Below are positions 8,583 to 31,785 of a stretch of DNA of 64,000 nt, piece by piece. Numbering within the stretch: position 1 is the first letter of the stretch; every line of letters begins with the position of its first letter. A model generated the notes under the pieces. It was not told the origin of the DNA. It searched no databases and saw only the letters and a list, made by a program, of their open reading frames with translations. Source of the stretch: Fodinibius salinus. Its GTDB lineage: Bacteria > Bacteroidota > Rhodothermia > Balneolales > Balneolaceae. A program made the position numbers and the translations under genes. Location of the stretch: contig NZ_VNHY01000002.1 in assembly GCF_008124865.1 (NCBI RefSeq), positions 248,001-312,000 of the forward strand, in the 5' to 3' direction.

Positions 8583-8656
8583 GCGCCCGTAGCTCAACTG
8601 GATAGAGCGTCTGACTTCGGATCAGAAGGTTGAGGGTTCGAATCCTTCCGGGCGTA
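8583..8656 (+). tRNA. tRNA-Arg (anticodon UCG)
   Basis: A 74-base cloverleaf can be drawn by hand: acceptor GCGCCCG pairing with CGGGCGT (first pair G-U), D-arm GCTC/GAGC, anticodon arm TCTGA-CTTCGGA-TCAGA with anticodon TCG, and T-arm GAGGG-TTCGAAT-CCTTC. CCA is not encoded. It is directly followed by a terminator and a tyrosine integrase gene, so its 3' half is the likely attachment site of the downstream element. Confidence 0.95.
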
Positions 8657-8676
8657 CACCTCTAAAACAGTACATA

Positions 8677-8711
8677 AACCCCGCTTATTTAATTATAGGC
8701 GGGGTTTTTTG
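8677..8711 (+). terminator. Intrinsic terminator after tRNA-Arg
   Basis: The stem ACCCCGC / GCGGGGT with an AT-rich loop is followed by a run of T. It ends the tRNA transcript before the integrase gene. Confidence 0.85.
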
Positions 8712-8840
8712 TTTGTATTTAGCCCATCTTCCTACCCCTTCTGTATGAAATATTTTCATAATTCATACATATTTTACTGGACTGATGTTACATATGATGT
8801 TACATTACTCTCCAACCTTAACTACTCATATGAAAAAAAT

Positions 8841-10010
8841 ATGGCCAGTCTAAGAAAACGCAACAACTACTACTCTATCGTTTTTGCCACGCGGGTTGAT
8901 GGCGATCTCATTCAAAAAACCTATGCTCTTGGTACCAAGTACAAAAAGATAGCCGAGCAAAAGAAACACCACTACGAAAAGTTATATGAAGCTGGTGAAA
9001 TCAATCCATTTGCTGATGACTGGAATCTTCAGGAGTATGAAAAAATGCAGGAGCTGAAAGGTACTTCTGTTGTAAGCCCCATCTTAAATGAACTGCAAAA
9101 GAAATTCTTAAGAGAAAAGACAAACGTAACTGAAAAAACAAAGAAAACTTATAAGTACATCATACGTCAATTTATGGAAGGAGTGGGCTACACAATGCCC
9201 GTCACAAGAATTGATGCAGATGATATTCGTGCGTTTTGCCTTCGAGATGACTTAGCCAATGCTTCAAAAAAGAATTACCTTAAACACCTGAAAGTATTCT
9301 TCAACTGGCTGGTAGCAGAAGAATACATAGAAACCAATCCCTGTGATAAAATTGCCGTGCCCAAAGTTCGAGATAATCTCGTCGATAAGATTATAGAAGA
9401 GGATGACCTTGATATAATTTTTAAAAAATTTAGAGAGTATCAGTTAAAACACAAAAAGGCTCGTAATATTCAATCCTCTGATCAAATGCAGCTTTGGTTT
9501 AAACCGCTAATAACACTGGCTTTTTATACTGGAATGCGGCGTAAAGAAATCATCCAGTTGCGGTGGGAGCATATCAACCTCAAAGAGGGATTTATCAGAG
9601 TTACAGATACTAAAAATGGTTCGGAGCGGACAATACCCATTTTTGAAACGTTATATTGGCTTTTAGTTGCCTGGAAAAAACTTATGGGCAATCCTAAAAA
9701 GGGATTAGTTTTCCCGAGTCCAAAATCAACTCCTGATCGAGAAATTGCAATGACGGGGGATAATGTCTCTAAACGTTTTAAATTTTACGCCACAGAGGAA
9801 GCTAAACTGAAAGACACTGTAAATTTTCATGGCCTCAGACATTCTTGCGCAACCTTCATGCTACGCATTGGCTTCAATGTAATTGAAGTTAAAAATATGC
9901 TTGGCCATAAAAGTCTTGAAGTAACCAATCGCTATGTTCACTTGGTTGCGAAAGATCTAATGCGTTCTGCTAACCGAAATGGTAAAATGAATTATCTGAA
10001 TGAAGCATAA
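8841..10010 (+). CDS. Tyrosine recombinase/integrase of the tRNA-Arg element
   Basis: Site-specific recombinase expected to integrate and excise the element at the adjacent tRNA-Arg. The 389-residue product has an N-terminal arm/DNA-binding region (about 1-75), a SAM-like core-binding domain (about 85-190; KTYKYIIRQFMEGVGY) and a catalytic domain with all visible active-site residues: Arg in TGMRRKEIIQLRWEHI (about 231), HGLRHSC (about 330), His of MLGHKSLEVT and Tyr of TNRYVHL (about 364). The frame is open a further 44 residues upstream, but that part is Tyr/Phe-rich and unlike integrase N-termini; the ATG at 8841 begins the typical MASLRKRNNYYS. The last 11 bases overlap the next gene. Confidence 0.95.
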   Translation: MASLRKRNNYYSIVFATRVDGDLIQKTYALGTKYKKIAEQKKHHYEKLYEAGEINPFADDWNLQEYEKMQELKGTSVVSPILNELQKKFLREKTNVTEKTKKTYKYIIRQFMEGVGYTMPVTRIDADDIRAFCLRDDLANASKKNYLKHLKVFFNWLVAEEYIETNPCDKIAVPKVRDNLVDKIIEEDDLDIIFKKFREYQLKHKKARNIQSSDQMQLWFKPLITLAFYTGMRRKEIIQLRWEHINLKEGFIRVTDTKNGSERTIPIFETLYWLLVAWKKLMGNPKKGLVFPSPKSTPDREIAMTGDNVSKRFKFYATEEAKLKDTVNFHGLRHSCATFMLRIGFNVIEVKNMLGHKSLEVTNRYVHLVAKDLMRSANRNGKMNYLNEA

Positions 10011-12406: not shown

Positions 12407-12682
12407 ATGGCAACCATTAAAACGCGCTATACCCTTGGGGATACCATCCAGTTCATAGACAGCGATGGCAACAAACGTAAGGAAATCGTCCGCATGATCG
12501 AAACACAGATCGTAGAAGGTTACGACCTCTGGGTGATATACGGATATGGTGAAGACCTCTATAAGCTCAACCATGTAAGTGAACACAAAATTTTAATATC
12601 TCAACGACAAATAAATGAGCAGCAACACCCAGGAAGAGTCCTTAACACTAGTATCGCCAAACAACCGGCAACAACCCGATGA
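12407..12682 (+). CDS. Small beta-rich early protein of unknown function
   Basis: A 91-residue protein. The first 65 residues look like a compact beta-barrel (TRYTLGDTIQFIDSDGNKR, then EGYDLWVIYGYGEDLY), reminiscent of small SH3-like or KOW-like folds. The C-terminal 25 residues are polar and overlap the first 68 bases of the helicase gene in another frame, indicating tight coupling of the two. No catalytic residues are evident. Function unknown, possibly a helicase accessory factor. Confidence 0.6.
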   Translation: MATIKTRYTLGDTIQFIDSDGNKRKEIVRMIETQIVEGYDLWVIYGYGEDLYKLNHVSEHKILISQRQINEQQHPGRVLNTSIAKQPATTR

Positions 12683-14741
12683 CTACGGGCCAGCAGTATC
12701 GAATTCTCAAAATGAACCTTTCGAATATGTCGACAGCTCCGATCCCCTGGATTTTGGTTGGTATCGCAATGAAACCGATGGCACCAGTCGCCGGATCGGT
12801 ACCTTCGATATCGAAATACATTCCAAGATCATCCGCTACAATCCCGAAACACTAAAATGGGATTCGACGCTCTATGAATGCCAAGTGAGCTGGCTAACCC
12901 CAGAAACCCGAAAACTTACACAGAGCGAGCTGTTCGTGCTGGAGCCGGAGGACTTGTTGTCCAAGAAAGCATTTCAGATTCAGATCTTTAAGCATTCCTA
13001 TCAATCGGCTCGCTTTAAGTCTGATGATGAGATCCTCTTCTTTATGAGCTTCCTGTGTAACCGGTGGCAGCCGCAGACCGTGTATGAGTTCAATTACTAC
13101 GGATTTATCGAACACCATGGCTACACCTTTTATCTGACGCGCAACGCCTTAATAAATATTCCGGATGATCACCTTCGGGAGCCCCAATACATGATAGCGC
13201 CCGACAGAGACTCTGGCCTGTTCCCCATGGTAGCTGCCGACACTACCTTTTACGTGAAACCCGGACGCATTGAACCCGCCCCGTTGTTAGATCTTCCATC
13301 GCCAACAGATGGCTTTTACAGCGATGAGGAACATCATCTATTTACCGGGAAAGAGCTCCAGTACTTTATCGATACCGTGCGAGATAAATTTGGAGAGCTT
13401 ATCGCCGGACAACAACCCGAGAAAAAGGCGGAAGGATATCTCATTTTCTCCTATATGCTCTCCTTTCTGTTTTTCGACGAGACCTACGATGTATTTAAAC
13501 ATGTGGTCTTTTTGTACCTATTTGGAGAACCATCAACCGGTAAGGGACAACTGTCTCAAATTATGCTCAATTTCTTTGGCCAATCTTTTACCGACGTTGA
13601 TTCCAACCCTACGCTAAAATCAGCTGAAAACAAGCTGGCCAATCACAGCAAGATCCCCGTAATCATGGATGAGTTTGTCCCCGGAAAAGGCAAGATCACG
13701 CCACAGGTATTTAATATGTGGTACGAATTGCGACAACGTGGGGTAAGCGCCTCCCACGATCGGACCAAAAACGCCTGGAGTCCTGTTCGGTCGCAATTGA
13801 TGTTTATCTCTAACTACAAACCGACCGAAGACCACTTTCGCTCGCGGTGTATTATGATCGAATATGCCAAAGACAAACGGGGTTCGGTGGATAATCTTTG
13901 GTGGTTTGATAACCACAAAAAAGAGATGCAGCGACTTTTCCTGTCGCTGCTTTACAAGTTTAATGACTTTAATCGGGAGCTGTTCAAAAGTGAGCTACTC
14001 TGGACCAAGCGCCTGCTTACCGAAGCCGTTGAGGAAGAATTAGGGCGACGAAGTGACCAAGAAGGCGTTCGTTTTCAGATTAAAGACCGTCAAATCGAAA
14101 ATATGGCGGCCCTTATTACGGTGGACCTATTTGTCTGTCGGCCCGGTGATGTCCAGTTCGCGGAACTGGTTGAACAGTCAGCTCAAGAAAGAGCCAAGGT
14201 AAGCGAAGAGGATCTACGGGAGATGCAGAACCTGCTTCGGGATTCGCGGGTATCCACCGAAATATTTCGTTATGGAGTAGAGTTCTTAGCCAATTCAGCA
14301 GAACGCGAAGTACACCAAACACCACTTCAGCAGTTCCTAGCCAGTATTGAGATCATGAACGATAACGGGGAGCTGCCGAAACGATACTACGGCTGGAACA
14401 GCAAGGATGGGCTGGTCATGTATTGGAGTGGCATTTGGGACGCCTACACCAACTATAACAAAGGCCGGGAGTATATCAGCCAGGATATCATCCGGGAAGA
14501 AATTGAAGCCTTGGACCTAAACGGAAAAGCCAAAACAAATTATTACAGCTACGAGGATCCGGTGAAGGGTACCGTAAAAGAAAGCCGACATGGCTACCAT
14601 ATTCCCCGTAAACATCTAACGCCAACCTGGCTGCGCGCCTTTGGCAAGCGGGAGGAGGCGAACATCATGTTGGAAGAGCAAGCCCGCCAGCCGGCCACCG
14701 AATACCAGACAAGCACCGGTGATAGCTCGCCACCATTTTAG
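12615..14741 (+). CDS. Phage-type replicative helicase/ATPase (D5/SF3-like)
   Basis: A 708-residue protein, likely the replication initiator or helicase of the element. The N-terminal 280 residues lack a recognised primase motif. A P-loop ATPase core follows: Walker A GEPSTGKGQL (about 305), Walker B-like VIMDEFVPG (about 350), a motif with MFISNYKP (about 395) and a nearby Arg pair (DHFRSRCIMIEYA), in the style of phage/plasmid D5-like and SF3 helicases. The C-terminal 250 residues are helical and end in a short winged-helix-like part. It lies after the switch region and directly before a phased repeat array, as expected for an initiator beside its origin. Confidence 0.8.
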   Translation: MSSNTQEESLTLVSPNNRQQPDDYGPAVSNSQNEPFEYVDSSDPLDFGWYRNETDGTSRRIGTFDIEIHSKIIRYNPETLKWDSTLYECQVSWLTPETRKLTQSELFVLEPEDLLSKKAFQIQIFKHSYQSARFKSDDEILFFMSFLCNRWQPQTVYEFNYYGFIEHHGYTFYLTRNALINIPDDHLREPQYMIAPDRDSGLFPMVAADTTFYVKPGRIEPAPLLDLPSPTDGFYSDEEHHLFTGKELQYFIDTVRDKFGELIAGQQPEKKAEGYLIFSYMLSFLFFDETYDVFKHVVFLYLFGEPSTGKGQLSQIMLNFFGQSFTDVDSNPTLKSAENKLANHSKIPVIMDEFVPGKGKITPQVFNMWYELRQRGVSASHDRTKNAWSPVRSQLMFISNYKPTEDHFRSRCIMIEYAKDKRGSVDNLWWFDNHKKEMQRLFLSLLYKFNDFNRELFKSELLWTKRLLTEAVEEELGRRSDQEGVRFQIKDRQIENMAALITVDLFVCRPGDVQFAELVEQSAQERAKVSEEDLREMQNLLRDSRVSTEIFRYGVEFLANSAEREVHQTPLQQFLASIEIMNDNGELPKRYYGWNSKDGLVMYWSGIWDAYTNYNKGREYISQDIIREEIEALDLNGKAKTNYYSYEDPVKGTVKESRHGYHIPRKHLTPTWLRAFGKREEANIMLEEQARQPATEYQTSTGDSSPPF

Positions 14742-14767
14742 GCGAAAATAGGAGAAATCTACGATTT

Positions 14768-15000
14768 TCTAAGAATTTGAAAACATCGTCTTATTTTCTT
14801 AGAACTTCCATTTCTCCCCCAAACAACACCCTGTAAGTATAATAATAATAGTTAGTTAGTAAATAATAATATATCTAAGAAAACCACTAAGAAACGACTA
14901 AGAACTCTAAGATCGGTCTAAGATATCTAAGATGAATCTTTGCCAATTTCTTAGACACTTAACCTATAGTTTTTACTGCACTTAACCTTGGCCTCTAAGA
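14768..15000. repeat. Phased (A/T)CTAAGA repeat array, candidate origin or operator
   Basis: The heptamer (A/T)CTAAGA occurs six times in direct orientation starting at 14874, 14886, 14897, 14906, 14917 and 14926, i.e. 9-12 bases apart, close to one helical turn. Further direct copies lie at 14768-14774 and 14994-15000, and inverted copies TCTTAGA at 14797-14803 and 14949-14955. The 270-base gap is otherwise AT-rich. Iterons of this kind mark plasmid and phage origins, or a cooperative operator. The array lies between the helicase gene and a small DNA-binding protein gene, both plausible binders. Confidence 0.7.
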
Positions 15001-15014
15001 AAATAAGAAAGACT

Positions 15015-15302
15015 ATGTCTAATTTTGAAAATCCTGAAAATACCAATAACCCGATGGGAAACATGCAATCTGACAGTGAAAATTTCATGACGATTGGCGA
15101 AGCGATCAGCTACATGTGTGAAAAGCTGGGACGCATCTCCCGGACCACCTTTTACCGGTGCGGCTATCGCAAAATGATAACCGTGCGCAGTTACGGGCGG
15201 AATAAAAGCACCGGGCGTGAAGCCGTTAAGCTATGCCGAAAGTCCGAAGTGGATTATATCATTCAGACCATTCAGGAGAATCCCCATGCCGAAAACATCT
15301 AA
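15015..15302 (+). CDS. Small helix-turn-helix protein
   Basis: A 95-residue protein, basic in its second half, with a MerR/excisionase-like DNA-binding unit: FMTIGEAISYMCEKLGRISR, TTFYRCGYRKM and a basic wing (YGRNKSTGREAVKLCRKSE). The in-frame TTG at 14988 would add nine residues; the ATG at 15015 is better placed behind aagaaag and leaves the last TCTAAGA repeat upstream of the gene. It follows the repeat array and may bind it. Its last 17 bases overlap the next gene. Confidence 0.7.
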   Translation: MSNFENPENTNNPMGNMQSDSENFMTIGEAISYMCEKLGRISRTTFYRCGYRKMITVRSYGRNKSTGREAVKLCRKSEVDYIIQTIQENPHAENI

Positions 15303-15834
15303 CCGTATAGATGAAATGGCTGTTACCGGACAAAAGATGGCAAAACCATCTATGTCAATTGATCATCTGATAGCAAAAGTAGATGAAATCAACCGCCAAT
15401 ATCATGATTTCAACGAACTTCATTTATCTGTTGATGAATTAGGCCGCCTTATTAGGGTGAATTATAAAAATGAGGGTGATTTTGAGGTCTCATTGACCGG
15501 TTGGCTCGATATGGGACAAGTTGGGACGTACCTCCAAAACTACCAACGAATGTTCTGCCTGGATCCCAACCGGCTAGATCATTTCTTTGATATGGATGAT
15601 GCTACGGAAATCATACCAATCAGCTGGCTTCGCCCCACAAGAAAACGCCCAATGGGAATTGCCAATGGGTTTACCAAAATGCGTCAGGCCTATCAGGGCT
15701 CAATACCCCGGCGAAATCCTATTTCAATTAGACCAAATGCAGAAGAAAAAGATCTTTTTGATATAATCGATGGAAATTCGACCTATTTTGTGGCCAAACA
15801 GATTGGGATGATGTCCTTGCCAGTTGTTTTATAA
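15286..15834 (+). CDS. Unknown protein coupled to the small HTH gene
   Basis: A 182-residue soluble protein of no recognised family. The start chosen is the ATG at 15286, behind a clear aggag site and overlapping the previous gene by 17 bases; a longer frame from 15217 would duplicate the other gene's coding region. It has a mixed alpha/beta pattern with a helical N-terminus (HLIAKVDEINRQYHDF), a segment rich in Asp (LDHFFDMDDATEI) and a basic middle (LRPTRKRP). It is the last gene of the early operon before the cargo region. Confidence 0.65.
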   Translation: MPKTSNRIDEMAVTGQKMAKPSMSIDHLIAKVDEINRQYHDFNELHLSVDELGRLIRVNYKNEGDFEVSLTGWLDMGQVGTYLQNYQRMFCLDPNRLDHFFDMDDATEIIPISWLRPTRKRPMGIANGFTKMRQAYQGSIPRRNPISIRPNAEEKDLFDIIDGNSTYFVAKQIGMMSLPVVL

Positions 15835-17147: not shown

Positions 17148-20100
17148 CTAGCTACTTACACTCTCCTCCACAATCTCAACATCTTCCTCATCAAGACCAT
17201 ATACTTTGTATACCATCCTATCAATTTCAGCTAAATAATTGATCTTTTGTCCATCTTCATTTTGAGCTTTCTCTACAGCTCTCGATATGTTTTTCACGCT
17301 GTTTTCAGTATAGGGAGGTATTGGAAAATCTTTAAGGGTCTTAGTATTAATTTTAGGATATGCTTTCCTATCTAAATTAATATTAGTGCTTATCAGATAA
17401 TATTTAGTCAATTGGGATACAACGATTCCCAATAAAAACCTTACGAAATCAGCACTCAAATCTCTTTTAGGTTTTAACGTAATCAAATCGGTATTACACA
17501 ATATTTCATCATCCAAATAGATTGCTTTTATCCTCTCACCTGATATTATCCTTCCTAAAACTATTCTCTCACCCGAAAATAAATCCATTGAACGAGGTTC
17601 GGCTAAATGCTCACCATATTTTAAGAACTCTATTTCACCTTTGACTGCCAGAGTATCTACATTTTTCGCTTTTAAAAATTGTTTATGATCCTCTGTTTTC
17701 TGAGAATCGGAATTATAATTCTTTTGATTAACATCCTCTTGTGTTTGTGGGGGATTACCCTTTCCAACTTGATACGGTTTAAGACCGAAACTAAAATCAA
17801 AAAAGTTCCCTAATTGGTTATTACTTTCCAGATTCAATCGTTTTTTGAAAGTTAGCTGTTCAAACTCATCTTCCTTTTCGATTATACGTATCTCCTGGAA
17901 ATCAAATATTGAACCACTATCAACTTCTTCTTTAATACTATTGCCATTATATTTTTCATCAAGAGACAATAACTCGATACGTTTAGGGAGGTTTCTCGTA
18001 TTTTTCTTACCGAATAAAAGTAATGTTTCTACGACAGCATCCTCAAAAACGCTATGTACATTTACGAGTTTATCTGCTGTATTTTCTATAAAAATATGAT
18101 TTCGAAGTTTCTTATCATATCTGGTAGACAACCAATAATTGGGCACAATCATAGAATAACATCCCAACTTTCTTATTAATCGTATCCCTAACTCAATAAA
18201 TAGTCCGAATGTATTAAGCTGATATTCAGTAGTTGAATATTCCGAATTATAATAGCTTTTGAGAGGGTCTGTTAGTGAAGCCGACTTTGAAGGTACATAC
18301 GGAGGATTCCCAATCACAACATCAAATCCAGTAAACTGCCCCTCTTTATTGAGCACCTCTGGAAATTCAAAACGCCACTCAAAGGCCTGGTTATAGAAAA
18401 CACCACTTTCCTGCTCTTCTATCTCTTTCTCAACCTTTTTAACCTTCTTTTCCTGCTTTTTAATATCTTTCTTTGAAAACTTTTTTTCTCCAAACAGATC
18501 AGCATTTTGCATGAGGTCCAGCCGCCCACGCTGCTTAGAAAGCTTTTCGTAGATCGGATCATTGTTAAGCAGTGTAGTACTATACTCATCCTTAATATTG
18601 TTTATCAGCTTCTGTAAACGCTTTTTTTCAGATCGATCTCCGGTTTGCTTATAGCTGTGAACGGCCTCCTTATAATCTTGTAAGCTATGGTCACTATCTT
18701 TAAAAACGGAACTCAGATCACTGTCTAAATCAAACCGGCTAACGAGGGAATTACCCGTTTTAATATTAATATCAATATTAGGTAGGACCTCTAATTCATG
18801 GTAATCACTTTTTTCTGTATAGTACGTATTTTTGAGAAGCTCAATCCAGAGACGTAACCGGCAGATTTTCACCGAGTTGGAATTAATGTCCACTCCAAAC
18901 AAGCAGTTCTCGATGATGTGTCGCTTTTCATGAAACAACGCTTTTTGTATACGCTGCCGATTAGCTGAAATTTTACGTTTTGCAAGATGACTGCCGTGCC
19001 AAGTATGTGATACATCGTATTCAAAGAGTTCTTCATCACTGTAGGTGACGATCAGCTCGTCATTTTCTACCTCAACCTTGACATCACGAAGCCGCTTACC
19101 ATCCCGGTCAGTTAAAATTCCCAGGTCCGACTTAATGGCCAGCAATTCATTCAAGCAAGAGACCAAGAAATGACCGGAACCTACCGCTGGATCACAAATC
19201 GTGATACTGTTTACTATTTCGTTGGCCTTTTCAATATCGGTATCTGCTCGACCTATCCGGTTGTATATATCATCGAAAGATAAATATTCCTCATCCCAGT
19301 GCTGGGCAAACTTGTCCGTTACAGCTTTCCTAAGGGTTTCCCTCGCCATATACTCAGTAATAAAACCAGGAGTGAAGTATGACCCATCCTTGTACCCATT
19401 GATCTTTTCAAAGATCAGGCCCAGTACAGAAGCATTAATTAAGGACTTGTGTTCTTCCTGAATCTCTTCTCCTCCTTCTGCGGCAAAGTCGTAGGCATCC
19501 AGGAACTCAAACAGGTATTCAAGAGTATTGATCTCATCCCCGCGCCGATCTTTCAATACACTTTTGCTATAGACCGGCAGCGTCTTTTTATCATCCAGGT
19601 TTGAAATAAAAACGGATTGATGCTCCAGAGAAGAAGGATCAAATAAGGAGCTATTCAAATAGGGTATATGGCCGAACTTTTCATTTATGTCCTCGGTCCG
19701 GTCAGCCTCACGGCGCGCCAAGACCTGGAAGAACAGTTTATTCAGCTCATCATACCCATCAATGGTTTTGGATTTCAGAAATTTAAACTTCTTGTCCTGC
19801 CGGTGATAACGAAACAGTTGGGCTTCCAACAGCTTGAGAAACAGTACTCGGTTCATCCAGATAATGCTCAGCTCCAGAGCAACATTGAATAGCTGCTCGT
19901 CACGGTCAGATCCATATTTCACCTTGGGCTCACGTACCGTACTCAGATGGTCTTCCGCATCCAGTATCCGGATGGTATTTTCAATAAAGGATCCTGGATG
20001 TCGCTTGTCTTCACTGGCCCGCTCTATGTAGCGTGTATTGCTCTTGGTGGTCTCTTCCAGACCAAGGATATAGAGCAGCTCCCGATAGAACTCCCGGTTC

Positions 20101-20858
20101 AGGGTATTGCTGTCATTGGCAAAGGGTTCTTTAAGCAACTGGGTGGGCGAAAAGAACTTGAACAGCGGGATCAGTTTTTTCTCCGGCTCGCTGTCTTCCT
20201 TTGCCTTTAAGTACTTTTCGTATGATTGCAGATCAAGATGCAATCCTCTAAGTGTGGTATCCTGGCTGTCTATAAAATCTCCAATCTTGTCATACATGAA
20301 ATCTTTATTGGAGGAGACCTTCTGATCAGTCTTCCAACTCTTATAGACCTTCTTCAATGCAGATGGCCGGTAATAGCACCGCTCAAACTCCTGGGCATCA
20401 AACACAAACCAGTTTAGGGTATCCGTTATGACAATATGCTTTAGATCCTCATTGTCCTCCTCGATGCGCTGCTCCAGGTAATAGAGAACAGCCTCATGCA
20501 TCGCCTTCCGGTTGAAGTCCTCCTCGGTAATCATCTCATTTTTGTTGGAAGGACGCTTCACCTCCAACAAGACACCAACAGGATCTTTGACCTTTCCATC
20601 GGTATGGATAGCCAGGTCAATCCGTACACTGGTATTGATGTAGTAGTCATCAAAGCCGACTTCATTAAGAAAAGGAACAAGCAGGTTTTTAAAATGCTCT
20701 TCGTGTTCATCTTTCTTTTTTGCAGAGTCAATATTTTTGAGTAGCTGCCCCAGCTCTGCCTTAAAGTTATTAAAGGAGGAGCGATCAACCGTCTCTTTGA
20801 GAAAAGCCTTATTAATACTTTTTCGCAGTGATTTCGTCTCTAATTGCATAAAAGCCAA
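17148..20858 (-). CDS. Single-chain restriction-modification enzyme (Type IIG/Eco57I-like)
   Basis: A 1236-residue protein combining DNA cleavage and N6-adenine methylation. Near the N-terminus is a PD-(D/E)XK-like nuclease signature (RIDLAIH, then LLEVKRPSNK, about 80-105), as in Type I R-subunit N-terminal domains. A helical region follows, then the methyltransferase core with motif I TICDPAVGSGHFLV (about 556), the FGVDINSNSVKICRLRLW motif, and motif IV VIGNPPYVPS (about 851). The C-terminal 350 residues look like a target-recognition domain. The chain is intact. It is convergent with the HATPase/STAS pair and forms, with it, the defence-like part of the cargo. No separate methylase or specificity gene is nearby. 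Confidence 0.9.
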   Translation of the reverse strand: MAFMQLETKSLRKSINKAFLKETVDRSSFNNFKAELGQLLKNIDSAKKKDEHEEHFKNLLVPFLNEVGFDDYYINTSVRIDLAIHTDGKVKDPVGVLLEVKRPSNKNEMITEEDFNRKAMHEAVLYYLEQRIEEDNEDLKHIVITDTLNWFVFDAQEFERCYYRPSALKKVYKSWKTDQKVSSNKDFMYDKIGDFIDSQDTTLRGLHLDLQSYEKYLKAKEDSEPEKKLIPLFKFFSPTQLLKEPFANDSNTLNREFYRELLYILGLEETTKSNTRYIERASEDKRHPGSFIENTIRILDAEDHLSTVREPKVKYGSDRDEQLFNVALELSIIWMNRVLFLKLLEAQLFRYHRQDKKFKFLKSKTIDGYDELNKLFFQVLARREADRTEDINEKFGHIPYLNSSLFDPSSLEHQSVFISNLDDKKTLPVYSKSVLKDRRGDEINTLEYLFEFLDAYDFAAEGGEEIQEEHKSLINASVLGLIFEKINGYKDGSYFTPGFITEYMARETLRKAVTDKFAQHWDEEYLSFDDIYNRIGRADTDIEKANEIVNSITICDPAVGSGHFLVSCLNELLAIKSDLGILTDRDGKRLRDVKVEVENDELIVTYSDEELFEYDVSHTWHGSHLAKRKISANRQRIQKALFHEKRHIIENCLFGVDINSNSVKICRLRLWIELLKNTYYTEKSDYHELEVLPNIDINIKTGNSLVSRFDLDSDLSSVFKDSDHSLQDYKEAVHSYKQTGDRSEKKRLQKLINNIKDEYSTTLLNNDPIYEKLSKQRGRLDLMQNADLFGEKKFSKKDIKKQEKKVKKVEKEIEEQESGVFYNQAFEWRFEFPEVLNKEGQFTGFDVVIGNPPYVPSKSASLTDPLKSYYNSEYSTTEYQLNTFGLFIELGIRLIRKLGCYSMIVPNYWLSTRYDKKLRNHIFIENTADKLVNVHSVFEDAVVETLLLFGKKNTRNLPKRIELLSLDEKYNGNSIKEEVDSGSIFDFQEIRIIEKEDEFEQLTFKKRLNLESNNQLGNFFDFSFGLKPYQVGKGNPPQTQEDVNQKNYNSDSQKTEDHKQFLKAKNVDTLAVKGEIEFLKYGEHLAEPRSMDLFSGERIVLGRIISGERIKAIYLDDEILCNTDLITLKPKRDLSADFVRFLLGIVVSQLTKYYLISTNINLDRKAYPKINTKTLKDFPIPPYTENSVKNISRAVEKAQNEDGQKINYLAEIDRMVYKVYGLDEEDVEIVEESVSS

Positions 20859-21018
20859 CTAATTGAATTAACCAAACTGATTTTGAGAATAAATGTAATA
20901 AATAAAAGACAACTGTGAGGAGGGCATTGATCAGTTTCTAATACCACTTACCTTAATCAAACGAATTATTCAGATATTACTAGTAATACCTATAAGTCAA
21001 GTAAAAAACGCAAGAAAC

Positions 21019-21246
21019 TTGACATACTGCATCCGCGATTTGAGTACTACTGACAGAAATAAGTTGATTACCTTTGTCCTGCAATATCCTCCCCGCCTAC
21101 GGGCGCTGCTGGGAGCCTTACTTACCGATCAGAAATTCAATAGCGCTTTTCCCAAATTGAAGAATAGTTTGAACCCGTTAACAAAAAATAAATTTGGCAG
21201 CCTAAGTAAAATCCTATCCACAGCAGAAAACTGGAATATCGTTTAG
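21019..21246 (+). pseudogene. Short ORF, possible C-terminal remnant of an antitoxin-like protein
   Basis: A 75-residue frame that can only start at TTG (21019). The peptide is protein-like rather than random (FVLQYPPRLRALLGALL, then LNPLTKNKFG and a terminal WNIV) and reminds me of C-terminal parts of small antitoxin-type proteins of Bacteroidota that pair with AbiEii-like nucleotidyltransferases. This is memory of a pattern, not a proven match. No toxin partner is next to it. A gene remnant is the most likely reading. Confidence 0.35.
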
Positions 21247-21292
21247 ATAATATCTTGCTGACGATATGATGGAGCAAATCCTAAGTGGAGTA

Positions 21293-22474
21293 TTATAATA
21301 ATGGATTGTGCCATGACGATTTTTCCTTGTCCCACTTGTAAGAGTTAATATTCTGATGTTCCAGTGTAAACTTTTTTTCATTTAAATCCATTAAAGTTAC
21401 TTCTACATTCAATTCATCTGCAATCTCAATTAAATCATCAATAACTTTAGGTTTCATCCTGCTTCCCAGATAGATGTGCTTTATAAAAGGAAAAGGTATT
21501 TTATTATTAAAATAGTTACTGATACGACCATCTAAGATAATTCTCCATTCTTTTTCATAACTCCACTTAGTAGATTTAGTTATGAAAGCCTTATACAAAA
21601 TCTCATCTATACCAACCTTGTTTATAAGATTTCCATCTTTATCAATAGTTAGCTTTTCAAGCTTAGTTCTTGGAATGTTAACTCGGTTCGAGGAGTAAAT
21701 TATGGGGAACAGACCAGCAAGAATGAGAAGGTTTATATTATTTTCAGACGAATATGACTCATAGCCGTTTTTATTTTCATACATTTTAAAAAAATTGGCG
21801 GGCTTTAAGCTAGATATATCATATTCAACACAGAATCCTTTGTGATTATCTGAATAATGCGCCCACATTTGAATCATTCTTTCCAAATCATTTCTAGCTG
21901 GTGGATAATTCTTTGATTGTAAGTTCGCAAATGAGGCAACTCTGATATTAGTCTCACGAATTTTGTCAATTTTTTTACTTACTTCTTTTTTCGACCTTCT
22001 CCTTATTTTGGTTATTTCTTTTTTAAAATCATCGCTTTTCCTTCTCATTTTAGAGATTACTGACGAATACTCTTCATTTTCACTCAATGCGTGAGGATAA
22101 ATGCCTGGTTTAGAATCAGCTATTCGTCTATAATCTTTTTTAGAAAAACCATCAGACTTTGCTATAAATCCAGTTTTGTCAATATGTTTTAATAATAAAT
22201 GTTTTTCATAGTTTTTATAATCTACCCCTACGTGGCTATCAAAAGGATCGTTGAATGAGTTTGGGTGAGATAACCAAAGTCGCCTTTTTCTTACATCAAG
22301 TATGTTACTCGAAGTTGGGGCATAAAACTTGAATAGAGTATCTGGAATTTTATTATCCTTTGATTTAACCAGTTCTGGATTTTTAAATACTATTTTAGAA
22401 AAGGAATCATGGGATCCACTTTTTAAAGAAAAAACATCTCTGATAAAATGTTTTTGCCATTTACGTTTTGTCAT
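21293..22474 (-). CDS. DUF2971 protein, last cassette of the array
   Basis: A 393-residue protein carrying DUF2971 features: LFKFYAPTSSNILDVRKRRL, WLSHPNSFNDPFD, MIQMWAHYSDNHKGFCVEYD, WSYEKEWRIIL and the ending HIYLGSRMKPKVIDDLIE. The domain is common in integron cassettes, islands and defence neighbourhoods, with unknown biochemistry. An insert (about 125-165) is very basic (KKEITKIRRRSKKEVSKKID). Its start is 68 bases inside the attC-like site at 22542. No attC is visible after its stop, so it is the last cassette of the array or the array is truncated here. AT-rich. Confidence 0.85.
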   Translation of the reverse strand: MTKRKWQKHFIRDVFSLKSGSHDSFSKIVFKNPELVKSKDNKIPDTLFKFYAPTSSNILDVRKRRLWLSHPNSFNDPFDSHVGVDYKNYEKHLLLKHIDKTGFIAKSDGFSKKDYRRIADSKPGIYPHALSENEEYSSVISKMRRKSDDFKKEITKIRRRSKKEVSKKIDKIRETNIRVASFANLQSKNYPPARNDLERMIQMWAHYSDNHKGFCVEYDISSLKPANFFKMYENKNGYESYSSENNINLLILAGLFPIIYSSNRVNIPRTKLEKLTIDKDGNLINKVGIDEILYKAFITKSTKWSYEKEWRIILDGRISNYFNNKIPFPFIKHIYLGSRMKPKVIDDLIEIADELNVEVTLMDLNEKKFTLEHQNINSYKWDKEKSSWHNPLL

Positions 22475-22541
22475 GTTTAGATAAATTAATTTGAACCTTC
22501 ATGCTGCTCTCTGATTTATTCATAGATAAAAAATACTGCCT

Positions 22542-22659
22542 ACCTAACAAACTGGATATGAACTACCGAAACATTGGTTTGAAAAATAAAAGATTAACTA
22601 ATAAATGGTATGAGAGCTAAGAAGTGGTAAGGACTGTCCACGTTGAGGAGAGATTAGCT
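22542..22659 (-). repeat. attC-like recombination site after the Ymh cassette
   Basis: Read on the minus strand, the site runs from an R''-like AGCTAAT (22653-22659) and L'' with CAACGTGGACAGTCC to L' GGTAGTTCATATCCAG and a perfect GTTRRRY core GTTAGGT (22542-22548). The two ends can pair as an imperfect hairpin, as folded attC does. Confidence 0.65.
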
Positions 22660-22708
22660 AAATATTTTTTGTAATAGCTATGGCGACTTGAACCACAATA
22701 GTAATTTA

Positions 22709-23551
22709 TTAATCGTTATTTTTACGCAAATCTGACTCTGCTTCGAGCTGGAAAAGTTTATTTAAAAGTAAAAATTCAGAAATTTGATCACTTAAAGATT
22801 GTCGCTGCTCACGATGAGCTTTAGGATTACGAAATGCCATGTACACACCCACAAAAATCTGTGCCCTGCCTTTTTGTTCAGCAGTATTAATATCTGGCCA
22901 GTACAACACCGAATCTTCTTCAAGAAATGATTTTGAAAATAACTTAGATCCATGTTCTTCTATTCCAGTACGCTCACGAACTACATCTTCCAGTCTTTTA
23001 TATCCTTGGAAAATCTGCTCATTTGGCGATTCCCTAAATTTACTGGCTAAGTCTAATAAACGCGGTTCGATTAAACCCAATGGAAGTATTGGGGCTATTT
23101 TCTGATTCAGCGTTTTATTTAAATCCAAATCTAAATGTTCTTTTAAGACATAGTCTCCCCAGTTTACAGCTTGAGCTGATTCTGATTTTTCAATACGCTC
23201 TATATCATCTTTAGTGAGAGCAGAAGCATCAAGTCTAGAAAGAAAGTCCTCACTTACAGATATTTCTGATACATCGATTTCTAGCTTGTCAAGTAAGGCA
23301 AGTATAAATGAAAATGCGGTTGCACCTCCGCCCCTATAATCCGATGCAAATCCAGATTTTACAGCAAGGAAATCACCAACTCCTATATCAAGTAATAAAG
23401 CATGATGGTTATCATTTGAAAGAATCCAAACATGATTTATGGATGTGTTAGATTGAATTATTCGAAGTACTGCTTCTTTACAATCATTAGTACCACCTGA
23501 GATACCAACATATTGGATACCAGCAAGCTCCTTATTTTGGTTCTCTGTCAT
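22709..23551 (-). CDS. TIGR02391 (Ymh-type) domain protein in a cassette
   Basis: A 280-residue soluble protein. The C-terminal 110 residues carry the TIGR02391/Ymh signature (FVGVYMAFRNPKAHRE, with EEHGSKLFSKSF and LYWPDINTAEQKGRAQ before it), a domain found in Abi-like and cassette-borne proteins. The N-terminal half (VGISGGTNDCKEAVLRIIQ, then a glycine-rich YRGGGATAF) is not recognised. It is bounded by attC-like sites on both sides. The HNxxxxR-like end (NPKAHR) recalls nucleases of the HEPN type, which is a family-level inference. Confidence 0.8.
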   Translation of the reverse strand: MTENQNKELAGIQYVGISGGTNDCKEAVLRIIQSNTSINHVWILSNDNHHALLLDIGVGDFLAVKSGFASDYRGGGATAFSFILALLDKLEIDVSEISVSEDFLSRLDASALTKDDIERIEKSESAQAVNWGDYVLKEHLDLDLNKTLNQKIAPILPLGLIEPRLLDLASKFRESPNEQIFQGYKRLEDVVRERTGIEEHGSKLFSKSFLEEDSVLYWPDINTAEQKGRAQIFVGVYMAFRNPKAHREQRQSLSDQISEFLLLNKLFQLEAESDLRKNND

Positions 23552-23574
23552 TGAATTAAATTCTTTTTTAGTTA

Positions 23575-23695
23575 GGCTAGCGGCACCCCGTATAAGTTAA
23601 CACTGGATTATTAATTTATTTATAAAATACAAGGTTAATGATAAAAAATGAGGCTAACAAGAAAGGGACAGCAGCTCCGTTCGCTGATTATATGC
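23575..23695 (-). repeat. attC-like recombination site after the HNH cassette
   Basis: The weakest of the six sites. On the minus strand an R''-like GCATATA (23689-23695) and L'' CAGCGAACGGAGCTG lie just after the HNH stop; the far end has L' CTTATACGGGGTGCC and a core-like GCTAGCC (23575-23581), which differs from GTTAGCC by one base. It was accepted because the L' pattern CTTATnnnGnnGnC is shared with the site at 28144. Confidence 0.45.
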
Positions 23696-23696
23696 A

Positions 23697-24350
23697 TTAA
23701 TGAAGGTGTAACCACACTTCAAAACCTTTAAAGAAGACCAACTCCATTATTCCACCTTTAGGATTATCCACGAAATATCTTCTGTAGTAAAATACCTCCT
23801 CATTTTGACCGAATTTTTCCATATGATTAAGCCCTTTGTCTCCATGATCTGCAACTTCTTGAAGTGTTGAGTTTATATCAGAATCCTCCCAATATATATT
23901 TGGAGTAAGAGCAGATATTTGACCATCCCAATGCTCATTTTTTTCGTGATAATAAAGTGCATAGCCCATTCTTTCGAACTGTTTAATTATTCTATTATGG
24001 TCAGTACTGATTACGAAATGTTTTTCATCCCCGATATTTTTGTATTGACTATTCTGGACAATAATCCTTTTTAACCCCTCATCTTTTTTTAGCGCTCGTT
24101 TAATCTTTGTGGAGTAGTGTTCTTTAGCTAAAGGTCCATTTTCATAATGAGCAGTTATAACAGCTAAAAGGTATGAATCATCGGTAGATTTTTGTGAATT
24201 ATGTACCTCACAAGATGGTACTGTGATTAAATTTTTACGATAATCCTCACTACCCTTCAAGTCTTTTGTTTCAGGGAAAAAACATTTAGGAGGTACATGC
24301 TCTTTTGAGGTAGCTTTATTATCACACATGTAACATTTTTGTTCGCTCAT
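23697..24350 (-). CDS. HNH-like nuclease-fold protein in a cassette
   Basis: A 217-residue protein with an N-terminal zinc-binding, HNH-like pattern: CYMCDNKATSKEHVPPKCFF, then LITVPSCEVHNSQKSTDDSY. The EHVPP and CxxHN elements match a class of HNH-family proteins common in integron cassettes. The C-terminal part is beta-rich and may recognise a substrate (LTPNIYWEDSDI). Whether it is an active nuclease cannot be seen. The start is 14 bases inside the upstream core site, typical for a cassette gene. Confidence 0.75.
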   Translation of the reverse strand: MSEQKCYMCDNKATSKEHVPPKCFFPETKDLKGSEDYRKNLITVPSCEVHNSQKSTDDSYLLAVITAHYENGPLAKEHYSTKIKRALKKDEGLKRIIVQNSQYKNIGDEKHFVISTDHNRIIKQFERMGYALYYHEKNEHWDGQISALTPNIYWEDSDINSTLQEVADHGDKGLNHMEKFGQNEEVFYYRRYFVDNPKGGIMELVFFKGFEVWLHLH

Positions 24351-24363
24351 ACCTAATACACTA

Positions 24364-24483
24364 AAATGACATTGCGCTTAACCGGCCCAACAGTGTTGAA
24401 TTAATTATAAAGTGAAAGAGTAACTAATAAACGGAAGGGAGGCAAGGAGATGATGTGGCCTGTCCGCGTTTAAGGGGTTAGCT
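24364..24483 (-). repeat. attC-like recombination site after the DUF5677-like cassette
   Basis: Minus strand: R'' AGCTAAC (24477-24483) fits RYYYAAC and lies 3 bases after the stop of the upstream gene. L'' CCTTAAACGCGGACAGGCC pairs with L' GGGCCGGTTAAGCGC. The 3' core is degenerate (GTCATTT, 24364-24370). The inverted L arms make this a convincing site despite the poor core. Confidence 0.65.
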
Positions 24484-24486
24484 GTA

Positions 24487-25257
24487 CTAGTTTAAATAAG
24501 AATTAATTAGTTCTTCTCGTTTCTCAATTTCCGGTAAAAAATCGTCTAGATTCTCGAAGTCTAAATGGTGGAATGTATTTATTAGAGATGATTTTAAAAT
24601 ATCTACTGCTGTCAGAATATGATGAGATATTTTTTCTAAATTCCAGTTAGTTAAAACAGAGAATTCCACACTGTTTTCTTTTTCAATCAAATGTCGGCTT
24701 TCAACTCTTAATATTTCATTATGTGTATCTTCACAAAGCTGACCATAAATTCCGGCATATGCATCTTTAATGCCTGCTAATTCGAAACGATCCTTAATTT
24801 GTGTGATATCTATGTCAAAGTTTGATAAGTGTTGGTCTACGTTACTTTTCTGTTTTCTATATTCTTTAATTTTACTTCCGATATCGCCATAGTTTTCAAT
24901 TGTATATTGCAAAAAAGGATTATCTGGCTCTTCAAAAGTTACTTGTAACTTCTTGATTTTTTGCTTCAAATGATTCGATGTCAATACATATGGGTAATTT
25001 TCATGCTTACATAAATTTAAAAGTTCAACGTAAGCTTCCAGTATACTTCTCAATATTGGTGGGATTGCAATTAGATTATCAGTTTTAGTTAAACTTACAA
25101 TTGCATCTGTATATTGGATAATTGAGGAACAAAAAGATGCTATGTACAAGTCGGTAGCATTATTGTCGATATTTTCTTGACTTGATATCGATTTAGTAGC
25201 TAAATCAACGATTTCTTTTAAATTCTTGATGAGATCTTCTTTCTTCATCGTATCCAA
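24487..25257 (-). CDS. DUF5677-like protein in a cassette
   Basis: A 256-residue helical protein that resembles DUF5677-type proteins: early DLYIASFCSSIIQYTDAIV, the conserved IPPILRSILEAYVELLNLC, and a later YGQLCEDTHNEILRVESRH with a C-terminal helix pair. These proteins are frequent in cassettes and defence islands and their biochemistry is unknown. There is no signal peptide or membrane segment. It is flanked by attC-like sites; the start is 13 bases from the core of the site at 25271. Confidence 0.7.
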   Translation of the reverse strand: MDTMKKEDLIKNLKEIVDLATKSISSQENIDNNATDLYIASFCSSIIQYTDAIVSLTKTDNLIAIPPILRSILEAYVELLNLCKHENYPYVLTSNHLKQKIKKLQVTFEEPDNPFLQYTIENYGDIGSKIKEYRKQKSNVDQHLSNFDIDITQIKDRFELAGIKDAYAGIYGQLCEDTHNEILRVESRHLIEKENSVEFSVLTNWNLEKISHHILTAVDILKSSLINTFHHLDFENLDDFLPEIEKREELINSYLN

Positions 25258-25270
25258 AATTATTTAGTAC

Positions 25271-25403
25271 AGCTAACGACATTGCACATAAGCTGCGTGT
25301 GCAGGCCAACATTGAATTTGTTTTAAAATGTACTACAGAAATTGAGAAACTGAAAATCAGCAGGGAAAGGCGAGGTACGTCCGCTAAAGGCGGGGTATTT
25401 TAC
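25271..25403 (-). repeat. attC-like recombination site after the DUF6602 cassette
   Basis: Minus strand: L'' CCGCCTTTAGCGGACGTACC follows the stop closely; L' CACGCAGCTTATGTGCAATGTC leads into the core GTTAGCT (25271-25277). The R'' end is poorly conserved (GTAAAAT, 25397-25403). It shares the GCGGACGTACC block with the next site upstream, a family resemblance among cassettes of one array. Confidence 0.6.
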
Positions 25404-25407
25404 GCTC

Positions 25408-26172
25408 TTACTCATTAATATTCTCAATTTCTCCAATCTTGTAAGACTCTTTTCCTCTTTTGGGATACCAAACTTCATTATTCCGGAGTACTGATTCAGG
25501 AAATAAAAACTCAATCACATTGTGAATAAAATAGGCTTGGGCTTTATTTCTTAGTTGATATAAATGCCACTTTTCATGCGGTTTTTGGGGTTCAAGTGGT
25601 TTTGTTTCCCAATAACGGATGAATAAATCTCTACCAATAGATGCTGAATTTACTCCGATGCTCGAAAAATGCTTAGAGTTCATTTGTAACTTTTGGAGTA
25701 AATAATTTTCATCTGGTAATCTTCCCACTTCATATGAAAATAGACCAAGAAAAGCTCTTCGGCCTGCTACCTTTCGGTGTAACTTTGAATTCTTTTCAAG
25801 CCGTTCAATAATTCTCTGATAATTTTCAGTGCCTATTGTACTCTTCACCTCAATTATGCCTTTAACTAAATCAGGAGTAACAATTACAAAATCACCGTCC
25901 TGAAATAATACAGGTTTTGAGGCATCATAAATAAGTATGTCGATTTGAGATGAACTGACGTATTGAGAATCATCATCTTTCGGTTCTTCATTATTGCTGA
26001 CAAAAAAACCTCTACCTACACCAATATTATCAGGTAAATACCTTTTTAAAATTGCTCGGAGGACACTTTCTTTCCATTCTCCATCAGATTGATGATGCTG
26101 GCCTTCGATGAAATTATTTACCCTAGATTTTAGTGATTCTAATTCTAAAGTAATCGATTCAAAGTAGTCCAT
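25408..26172 (-). CDS. DUF6602 nuclease-fold protein in a cassette
   Basis: A 254-residue protein with the features of DUF6602: GEWKESVLRAILKRYLPDNI, VGRGFFVSN, then SSQIDILIYDASKPVLF and LVKGIIEVKSTIGT. The Asp of QIDILIYD and the EVK triad form a PD-(D/E)XK-like active site, so a DNA endonuclease fold is likely. It is well placed as a stand-alone defence gene but no partner is adjacent. It begins 20 bases inside the upstream core site, which is typical cassette spacing. Confidence 0.8.
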   Translation of the reverse strand: MDYFESITLELESLKSRVNNFIEGQHHQSDGEWKESVLRAILKRYLPDNIGVGRGFFVSNNEEPKDDDSQYVSSSQIDILIYDASKPVLFQDGDFVIVTPDLVKGIIEVKSTIGTENYQRIIERLEKNSKLHRKVAGRRAFLGLFSYEVGRLPDENYLLQKLQMNSKHFSSIGVNSASIGRDLFIRYWETKPLEPQKPHEKWHLYQLRNKAQAYFIHNVIEFLFPESVLRNNEVWYPKRGKESYKIGEIENINE

Positions 26173-26191
26173 ATATCGAAGAAATCAAGTA

Positions 26192-26319
26192 ACATAACGG
26201 CCCACGAGTAACCGGCGTGCAGACCGACATTAATTATTAAAAATGTACTATAGAATTTGATGATCTAAAAACTTGGCAGCCAATGGCGAGGTACGTCCGC
26301 GTTGACGCGCTTGCTAAGC
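26192..26319 (-). repeat. attC-like recombination site after the 591-residue cassette
   Basis: Minus strand: degenerate R'' GCTTAGC (26313-26319), L'' GCGCGTCAACGCGGACGTACC, and at the other end L' GCACGCCGGTTACTCGTGGGCC with core GTTATGT (26192-26198). The GGGCCGTTAT end closely matches the GGGTCGTTAT of the site at 28144. Confidence 0.65.
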
Positions 26320-26347
26320 TGCTATAATAGTTAATTATAGCTAAATT

Positions 26348-28123
26348 TCACTTCGTCTTTTGGGTATCTGATGGTTCAAAAAGTAATTTACCAATCCACC
26401 ATATTGCTCGTCCATAATTCGAAATCATTTGTTCACCCTGTCTCAGAAAAGACTGGCTTTCATCAATTTCTGCTAATTTTAACGCATCTCCAATGTTCGA
26501 ACTTGTCGGATGAGCATCACCTACTCGCATGTCATATACACCCACAATTGGGCCAAAAATTCGACGAGCTTTTTCAGGTCCTACTTTCTGAGCTAGAACA
26601 TTCTGTAGAAGTTTGTTCGAACCAAGTTTTTTCTTATCAGGGTGTGTTGAGAGCTTACGGAGTTCCTTGACATCAAGGCGATCAGAAAAAACACGAACAA
26701 GCTCTTTAGCTAATCTCAATAATGATTTCAGATCCTTGCTCGCGAAGCGGGATATGTGTTGCGTAGCTGAGGGATGCTCAATATTATGTGTGAAAAGAGA
26801 AGCATTAAATTCTTTTCGAAAACCCACCTCTAACATTTTCATAACCTTGAAAAGGAGATCTTCAACAGCGTGAGTAGATGCAGGTTGGGTTTTTACTTGT
26901 GCAGCTAATAGCTCATTTGAAACCTTTCCATCTGGGACAACGTTATGCGCCGCCCAAATATGCTGTTCCCATCCTTCGAGGCGAGCAATATCGCTGGCGT
27001 AGACGGTGATTAAATCTGAAGAATTAATTCCAAAATGAGTCACGTACCCAGATGTGGATTCAATACCCCCTGTTTCTGCCGTATACCACTTGAGAGAAAA
27101 CCCACGAAGACTGAGAAGCTCGTTTACTATGCTTGATCGGAACCATAGCCATCGTCCAATATCTTCATTGTATAAATCGTGAGATCCCATGCGTGATCCG
27201 TCAGTCTCAACTATGAATTGGGGAAGATTTGTATCTTCATCGCCTCGGACACGCTTGCTTTGACCATTGTGGTCAATCCATTCATCACGCCAAAATTCAC
27301 CCTCAATCCGTATACCTTCAAAGCCACTCAAATGCCCTTCCGAACTTTCATAATCAGTATTTTCATTGTTCTCGGGGCCCATCACAGGGGCGTCTTCTTC
27401 TTCATCAATATCAGTTCGCCAAGTACGCATTAAAGCCCAACCTCCACCAAAGACATCATCTAAACTGCGAATTAGGAGTTCAAATTTTCCACCATCTCGC
27501 TGTTCTTGCATATTTTCTAGATTTGCATAGTCACTATCCTCAAGTGAAGAGATATTTTCAACTCTGCTACGGTAATACGAAAGACGAAGTGATAGATTTC
27601 TTGCTGCCAAATAGTCTATGAGAAATTCCCGTTTGATTTCGATAAGTCGATGATGCCCTTTTTCATCAAGGACCTCTCGAGCTACTACAACAAAATTTTC
27701 TTCTGGCCTTACCCAGTTTGTTCCTTCCTTAATCAAGCGAAGAGCCACAACAAGATCAGGGTTTAGTATCCATTTTCTACCACCAATTATCGGTTGTGGG
27801 TGCTCAAAAACGAGTTGAACTCCGATTGGTTCTTTATCACTGCGTTGATACTGCTCTATAGACGCATAATAACCATCTTCATATGCAAATGGTTTTACGT
27901 TACAACTGATGCCAATGTCACTCCAACTAAGTTGTTCTGCAACTTCTCTATGTTCTGGGGGGAAAGCTACAGAGCCGCACCCAAAATATTCTTCAACATA
28001 ACCTATATTCTTCACAGTACCTTTACCTTTTTCATCGGTATAGGAAGCTCTTAGAGGAACCCAAGTCGCATTGGAAAAAAATCGTCTAGTTACTTTTTTT
28101 TGGAGAATCCAATCTTGATTCAT
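26348..28123 (-). CDS. Large cassette protein of unknown function
   Basis: I do not recognise this 591-residue protein. It is soluble, rich in Trp and acidic residues and intact. The N-terminal 350 residues are mostly beta (WVPLRASYTDEKGKGTVKNI, FECGS-like turns, VVALRLIKEGTNWVRPEE). The C-terminal 200 residues are helical (DLKSLLRLAKELVRVFSDRL, VGVYDMRVGDAHPTSSNI), the last part resembling HEPN-like helical bundles with an RxxxxH-like RVGDAH. At nearly 1.8 kb it is unusually long for a cassette gene. It starts 20 bases from the core site at 28144. Confidence 0.75.
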   Translation of the reverse strand: MNQDWILQKKVTRRFFSNATWVPLRASYTDEKGKGTVKNIGYVEEYFGCGSVAFPPEHREVAEQLSWSDIGISCNVKPFAYEDGYYASIEQYQRSDKEPIGVQLVFEHPQPIIGGRKWILNPDLVVALRLIKEGTNWVRPEENFVVVAREVLDEKGHHRLIEIKREFLIDYLAARNLSLRLSYYRSRVENISSLEDSDYANLENMQEQRDGGKFELLIRSLDDVFGGGWALMRTWRTDIDEEEDAPVMGPENNENTDYESSEGHLSGFEGIRIEGEFWRDEWIDHNGQSKRVRGDEDTNLPQFIVETDGSRMGSHDLYNEDIGRWLWFRSSIVNELLSLRGFSLKWYTAETGGIESTSGYVTHFGINSSDLITVYASDIARLEGWEQHIWAAHNVVPDGKVSNELLAAQVKTQPASTHAVEDLLFKVMKMLEVGFRKEFNASLFTHNIEHPSATQHISRFASKDLKSLLRLAKELVRVFSDRLDVKELRKLSTHPDKKKLGSNKLLQNVLAQKVGPEKARRIFGPIVGVYDMRVGDAHPTSSNIGDALKLAEIDESQSFLRQGEQMISNYGRAIWWIGKLLFEPSDTQKTK

Positions 28124-28143
28124 AGTAAACTGATTAACTTGCA

Positions 28144-28269
28144 GTATAACGACCCACGGGATAAGCGGCTTGGAGATTAAGAACTTAATTTACCAGACAA
28201 AGCTGTAACCGCAAGGAGACAGAACAGAAACCAAGTTTGTACCAAGTCCGCTTGATGCCGTTGTTATGC
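28144..28269 (-). repeat. attC recombination site after the TIR-TPR cassette
   Basis: The clearest site of the array. Minus strand: R'' GCATAAC (28263-28269), L'' GGCATCAAGCGGACTTGG, and at the other end L' CCAAGCCGCTTATCC with core GTTATAC (28144-28150). L'' and L' are complementary apart from an unpaired base, as in folded integron attC sites, and the block CATCAAGCGGAC is typical of attC. It begins 6 bases after the TIR gene stop. Confidence 0.8.
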
Positions 28270-28275
28270 GTTTTT

Positions 28276-31122: not shown

Positions 31123-31143
31123 CCGACTTTGAACAACCCCGCC

Positions 31144-31548: not shown

Positions 31549-31557
31549 ACAATTCCC

Positions 31558-31785
31558 ATGCCGACCATTACTCAACAACCCGTTACCAATCTGCGAGACA
31601 ACATCTACGATACCCTGGATTGCCCCGGTATAACGACCATCACCCGCTCCCGGCAATTTACGGGCGTGCTGATCAGCCTGGGTGACCTCGACCCGAAATT
31701 GGCCAAACGCCTGCAAGATGTCACAATACGCAACCCCGAGCACGGGCTACAGCTACTGCTCGACTATATCACCTACCGCTCTTGA
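31558..31785 (+). CDS. 75-residue protein of the virion operon
   Basis: A short protein with an alpha/beta pattern (NLRDNIYDTLDCPGITTITR, then PEHGLQLLLDYITYRS) and no recognised family. Its TGA stop overlaps the TTG start of the next gene (TTGA), so the two are translationally coupled. Confidence 0.6.
   Translation: MPTITQQPVTNLRDNIYDTLDCPGITTITRSRQFTGVLISLGDLDPKLAKRLQDVTIRNPEHGLQLLLDYITYRS

Follow-up and report, generated by a model that had tools for sequence, protein, structure and literature searches.

The window, by which we mean the whole 64,000-nucleotide stretch of Fodinibius salinus DNA that was analyzed, comes from a 2.9-Mb genome and contains, from position 8583 onward, the start of an 87-kb integrative element that extends from a tRNA-Arg gene to a copy of the tRNA 3′ end (G000:C2:256583-343691). 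The gene for a tyrosine integrase is followed by rep, a gap with an array of short repeats, and the gene for a small HTH protein (Table 1). A second attachment repeat was sought within the window and was not found; the matching repeat of the tRNA 3′ end lies 87 kb away, outside the window, at G000:C2:343643-343691. Equivalent att pairs were present in seven relatives at distances of 69-96 kb, as calculated from their coordinates. The same-genus relatives include records labelled Fodinibius and Aliifodinibius.

Table 1. Features of the replication module and its surroundings (window coordinates).
Feature	Position	Strand	Remarks
Tyrosine integrase of the element	8709..10010	+	Adjoins tRNA-Arg 8583-8657
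rep, 708 aa, probable self-loading AAA+ initiator helicase	12615..14741	+	Model nearest SCCmec Cch (5dgk) and SaPIbov1 Rep (8tch)
C-terminal domain of Rep (residues 566-708); predicted winged helix and proposed reader of the iterons	14310..14738	+	Cassette swap; model pLDDT 76
Exchange cassette: Rep C-terminal domain, putative origin and first ~24 HTH codons	14350..15090	.	~0.75 kb; boundaries approximate, projected from relatives
Left iteron 1, TCTAAGA	14768..14774	+	Motif search; position kept in 5/7 other CTAAGA-type relatives, CCAAGA in the remaining 2
Left iteron 2, inverted	14797..14803	-	Present in 8/8 CTAAGA-type rows; GGTTAGA in L007/L008
AT-rich core, probable DNA-unwinding element	14833..14882	.	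End overlaps first direct iteron
Main iteron array, six direct copies	14874..14932	+	Copies at 14874, 14886, 14897, 14906, 14917, 14926
Right inverted iteron	14949..14955	-	Motif search and alignment of relatives
Last iteron	14994..15000	+	14 bp 5′ of HTH gene start codon; 68 bp from main block
HTH protein of 95 aa; unlikely to be the specificity factor of the array	15015..15302	+	Alignment; PHROG 16066 match, E 3e-4

An operon at 30124-43870 is common to most homologous elements, those of Gracilimonas and Balneola included, and the stretch between it and the rep module consists of variable cargo. In the window, this cargo (17148-29739, minus strand) encodes an Eco57I-type methylase together with DUF2971, DUF5677 and TIR+TPR proteins and is probably an anti-phage defence cluster; methylase homologues were found near the equivalent place in other elements. 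A 2420-aa protein encoded at 36608-43870, which has a RelA/SpoT-like domain, an SNF2-type helicase and DarB-like/methyltransferase PHROG matches, is kept in most homologous elements whose loci extend that far. Metal resistance-type cargo, comprising an RND efflux trio, two P-type ATPases, a multicopper oxidase, CopB and an ArsP-like permease, occurs at 52056-63198 and in L031/L032. The left att sites of L028 (5.7-5.9 kb), L024 and L025 possess only the 3′ half of tRNA-Arg, as if by tandem upstream insertion, and G002 has tRNA and att copies at 470.6, 478.9 and 568.9 kb.

Relaxase (PF03432), TraG (PF12696) and VirB4 (PF03135) were absent from four genomes, including that of the window, and were detected in control genomes; by these three families the element is not a conventional ICE. 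Terminase_6N (PF03237) was also absent from four genomes, no phage head or terminase PHROG matches were obtained among the proteins scanned, and the only phage-type match in PHROG scans of the ORFs examined was to a generic transglycosylase domain. Judged by its size and by its gene content as tested, the whole element is not a PICI, a PICI being a small, helper-phage-dependent satellite with terS or capsid-remodelling genes.

The repeat array and its AT-rich core

A motif search of positions 14768-15000 identified ten exact WCTAAGA sites, eight on the plus strand and two on the minus strand, so that all of the heptamers listed in an earlier, sequence-only reading of this DNA (six spaced direct copies, two further direct and two inverted) were found where that reading had placed them. 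The array begins 27 bp past the rep stop codon. The gap was also correctly described as non-coding, since no ORF of at least 60 aa was found in it other than the HTH frame when read from an alternative start farther upstream. When the gap was shuffled with its dinucleotides preserved (n = 2000), the motif occurred 0.43 times on average and three times at most, compared with ten in the actual sequence, and the commonest 7-mer of any kind reached a maximum of four copies, compared with eight observed. Across the whole window the heptamer was found at 21 sites where 14.6 are expected, which leaves no enrichment outside the array, and 10 of the 22 sites in the 87,035-bp element fall within 233 bp, a 310-fold density. 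Equal frequency elsewhere in the element, named in the sequence-only reading as one of the results that would speak against it, was therefore not observed. No second 7-mer clump (at least five copies per 260 bp) was found in the 64 kb.

The six central direct copies are separated, start to start, by 12, 11, 9, 11 and 9 bp, or one helical turn on average. The helical phasing claimed earlier is genuine (resultant 0.89 at 10.5 bp) but modest when taken alone, as 2.4% of random spacings were equally good; comparable phasing was observed with most of the other repeat words of relatives described below. An AT-rich core, to which the sequence-only reading had not referred, precedes the main block; by nearest-neighbour energies, no other 50-bp segment of the 64-kb window has a less stable duplex. 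Two iterons lie to its left and eight to its right, the left set thus being small, and an AT-rich stretch is retained in CTAAGA- and GGTTAGA-type relatives alike. The GC-skew switch that had been proposed as a sign of replication start was not seen at the array, as expected because the element is mostly integrated. A sigma-70 promoter scan of the gap gave scores at chance level and located no promoter, and no terminator was found in the gap.

Rep and the arrays beside its homologues

Across 16 homologues, Rep keeps a Walker A motif (GEPSTGKG), an invariant D352-E353 pair, N400 and R411. A Pfam search with Rep returned no family, and a PDB sequence-profile search yielded nothing credible and no match to SaPI Rep or Cch. 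The structure of Rep was predicted with AlphaFold, and the model, which is of only fair quality (mean pLDDT 69), was found to be most similar to Cch of SCCmec (5dgk; Z 16.6 over 292 residues at 4.9 A; Foldseek E 2.8e-9) and then to Rep of SaPIbov1 (8tch; Z 13.1 over 331 residues at 9.4 A; Foldseek E 5.1e-8), with MCM helicases ranking after both. Both Cch and SaPI Rep are initiator helicases that load themselves, and the fold suggests that Rep is probably a self-loading AAA+ (MCM-like) helicase as well. The last 143 residues of Rep were modelled as H-E-E-H-H-E-E, a winged-helix topology. Structural matches of this C-terminal domain were mostly winged-helix proteins and were weak (best Z 5.7), Foldseek gave no match at E <0.001 and a PDB sequence-profile search with the domain returned nothing credible, so that its assignment as a winged helix, made from the model, is a weak one. 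Scans of viral contigs with Rep, the Rep alignment and the HTH protein found no relatives, and neither did a tblastn search of phage records with Rep.

The sequence-only reading had proposed a search for the array in related elements, and dense arrays of short words were indeed present 3′ of rep in nearly all homologues. In the 16 homologue loci from named genomes (7-22 kb each; Rep identity from 98% down to 26%), the densest 7-mer clump was directly 3′ of the rep stop codon in every case; in one distant homologue, L014, there was no array between rep and the next ORF. The repeated word is CTAAGA in most Fodinibius elements, GGTTAGA in L007 and L008, TGAAACA in Gracilimonas, Balneola, Rhodohalobacter and a Chitinophagaceae-labelled MAG, and AGTAACA in L056. 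Additional homologues from a whole-genome search have TGAAACA, and more distant ones have ACGTTAG, CTGCTAA or GGTTAGA. As a rule, the layout remains constant across words and consists of an inverted copy at about +50 to +60, the AT-rich stretch, direct copies at steps of 12, 11 and 9-10 bp, inverted copies after the direct block, and a final copy ahead of the following gene. The arrays of distant homologues extend over about 300 bp after rep, with copies in both orientations. The CTAAGA core is almost unchanging across 80 aligned sites from eight elements, and several altered heptamer copies were seen in L004 (= L048). The last iteron is kept in all eight CTAAGA-type rows and is changed in concert with the others in L007 and L008.

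The same genome encodes a second Rep (G000:C4:147380-149272; L017, L030), 30% identical to the first, that has its own array with the word TGAAAC; a distinct word is what would be expected if two replicons must not cross-initiate. A clump at L053:5160-5460 (word ACTAAGT), 6.5 kb upstream of rep, was considered and set aside, as it looks like an imperfect short-period repeat containing CTTAGT and not like an array of this layout.

Exchange of the Rep C-terminal domain together with the array

The linkage of the array to the Rep C-terminus, which also goes beyond the earlier reading, is seen in three relatives. The Fodinibius elements L006 and L008 are ~90-97% identical (about 94%) over most of the stretch from the integrase to about position 14300, or Rep residue ~560; their sliding identity is 44-67% over about 14350-15090 and is again 97% at 15110. 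Within this cassette, the CTAAGA-bearing L006 is similar to the window (up to 86%), and L008 is almost the same as L007 (up to 99%), both L007 and L008 having GGTTAGA at the equivalent positions on both strands. In phylogenetic trees, L006 and L008 are sisters in the Rep core (support 96/95) and downstream of the array (99/96), where a grouping of L007 with L008 was rejected (p 0.012), whereas L007 and L008 are sisters in the cassette (100/100). In the cassette tree alone, L006 and L007/L008 are not separated (support 43/87), which is due to rooting. This conflict of sister pairs, together with the identity profile, points to a natural swap of the cassette, which would be a single event in the ten close relatives. 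Because the two elements with the GGTTAGA cassette stem from different genomes, chimeric assembly is an unlikely cause.

The identity of the Rep C-terminal domain is 62-63% between word types and 79-97% within a type, and all 71 residues of the HTH domain are the same in L006, L007 and L008 despite their two words. Since the C-terminal domain was exchanged together with the array while the HTH domain stayed the same, these alignments suggest that the array is most likely read by the C-terminal domain of Rep and not by the HTH protein.

Eleven copies of GGTTAGA, the word of L007 and L008, were also found 3′ of rep in L013. This element was rejected as the donor of the GGTTAGA cassette because its C-terminal region does not align with those of L007 and L008; the shared word reflects either convergence or undetected homology.

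Proposed origin function and its alternatives

The sequence-only reading had offered two options, an iteron origin and a cooperative operator, of which the former gains strong support from the location of the array 3′ of rep in nearly every homologue, the AT-rich core bracketed by iterons, the SaPI Rep- and SCC Cch-like fold, and the covariation of the word with the Rep C-terminus. Considering its position, conserved layout and natural swap, the instability of the core, the fold of Rep and the published SaPI/PICI parallels, we think it very probable that the array is the replication origin of the 87-kb element and that the upstream-encoded Rep is its initiator. By analogy with SaPI Rep and PICI origins, Rep subunits would bind (T)CTAAGA iterons through the C-terminal winged-helix-like domain, and the direct copies, one helical turn apart, would load Rep side by side to the right of the AT-rich core, with the two left copies serving as a smaller opposing set. 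Acting as a self-loading, MCM-like AAA+ helicase, Rep would then melt the core, and replication of the excised or derepressed element could start. With the C-terminal domain and the array moving as one cassette, elements could change their origin specificity. Points that weigh against this reading are the fair quality of the Rep model and its lack of a sequence-level match, the weak winged-helix assignment, the small left set, the array-less L014, the GGTTAGA word of L013 with its non-aligning C-terminal region, and the missing GC-skew switch.

In the operator reading, the HTH protein would bind the heptamers cooperatively and control its own operon or rep, with no role for the array in replication. 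Regulator genes are commonly preceded by an operator, the last iteron is very close to the HTH start codon, and cooperative binding suits phased direct repeats. This reading is nevertheless highly improbable, as the 71-residue HTH domain does not vary with the word between CTAAGA- and GGTTAGA-array elements, the array was exchanged with the Rep C-terminus and not with the HTH domain, the arrays of distant homologues occupy ~300 bp 3′ of rep in both orientations, and the gap has no promoter-like site above chance. A use of the array beyond the origin, in which the Rep-bound repeats would also repress or time the HTH operon downstream, with overlapping sites serving for autoregulation, is a possibility to which we give a little less than even weight. 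Iteron plasmids often couple replication with repression, and the lone last iteron by the start codon is kept in every CTAAGA- and GGTTAGA-type array even though it is well away from the main block; against this, the promoter scan located nothing.

Arrays of short repeats can also be centromeres, and a parC-like site would need a small partition protein as its binder, for which the 181-aa protein encoded at 15289-15834, with its weak ParB-like PHROG match (E 0.089), might be a candidate. That match is at chance level, however, the gene lies outside the exchanged cassette while the word follows the Rep C-terminus, and partition sites are not characterized by an AT-rich melting core; a partition site is accordingly highly improbable. 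It is also very doubtful that the array is the decayed remnant of a former origin, non-functional in the present copy. Integrated elements do decay, and L004 has its changed copies, but each of the ten copies in the window matches the motif exactly, Rep is intact and lacks none of its motifs, and the site core is nearly invariant in the eight aligned elements.

The origin reading agrees with what is known of SaPIs and PICIs. The C-terminal domain of SaPI Rep recognizes iterons directly downstream of rep (PMC7581432), and PICI origins are located 3′ of rep and consist of an AT-rich region flanked by two iteron sets, the rep-ori unit being able to sustain a plasmid (PMC6092414). Like SaPIbov1 and EcCICFT073 (PMC6092414, PMC7581432), the present element has an AAA+ Rep (here by fold), an array that immediately follows rep, short iterons that flank an AT-rich stretch, words particular to each element, an integrase beside the replication module and, as proposed from the sequence swap, a C-terminal domain that reads the origin. 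In contrast to these small satellites, the elements are 69-96 kb long, have no terminase by the family searched and belong to the phylum Balneolota, and their Rep has no sequence-level match and an asymmetric array. The nearest fold to Rep is that of SCCmec Cch, and Cch2 uses its C-terminal domain to bind direct repeats that are intergenic and lie 3′ of the Cch2 gene (PMC7581432); Cch2 differs in having three 5-bp iterons, and SCC in using Ccr site-specific recombinases and a different att site, with no cargo or neighbour genes seen in common. As in the RepA_N system of PLE and in iteron plasmids, which use theta replication, an array in an integrated element or plasmid would be read by its cognate initiator (PMC7145576). 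RepA_N, however, binds through its N-terminal domain and has no predicted helicase activity, whereas the Rep described here is itself AAA+ helicase-like and tracks the iterons with its C-terminus. By position, architecture and fold, the module would work like the rep-ori module of SaPI/PICI or SCC.

The SaPI/PICI/SCC origin logic here appears in a different phylum and in large elements whose Rep lacks a sequence match. We tentatively suggest that the 69-96 kb, tRNA-Arg-integrated replicons of Balneolota may form an undescribed class that consists neither of satellites nor of conjugative elements or ordinary prophages and that swaps a cassette of Rep C-terminal domain and iterons for origin specificity. 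If so, related elements could escape cross-initiation or incompatibility by cassette exchange. Several words on one conserved scaffold, together with one natural swap, provide a ready set for studying origin choice by self-loading helicase initiators, and the same set may inform how mobile elements change their compatibility.
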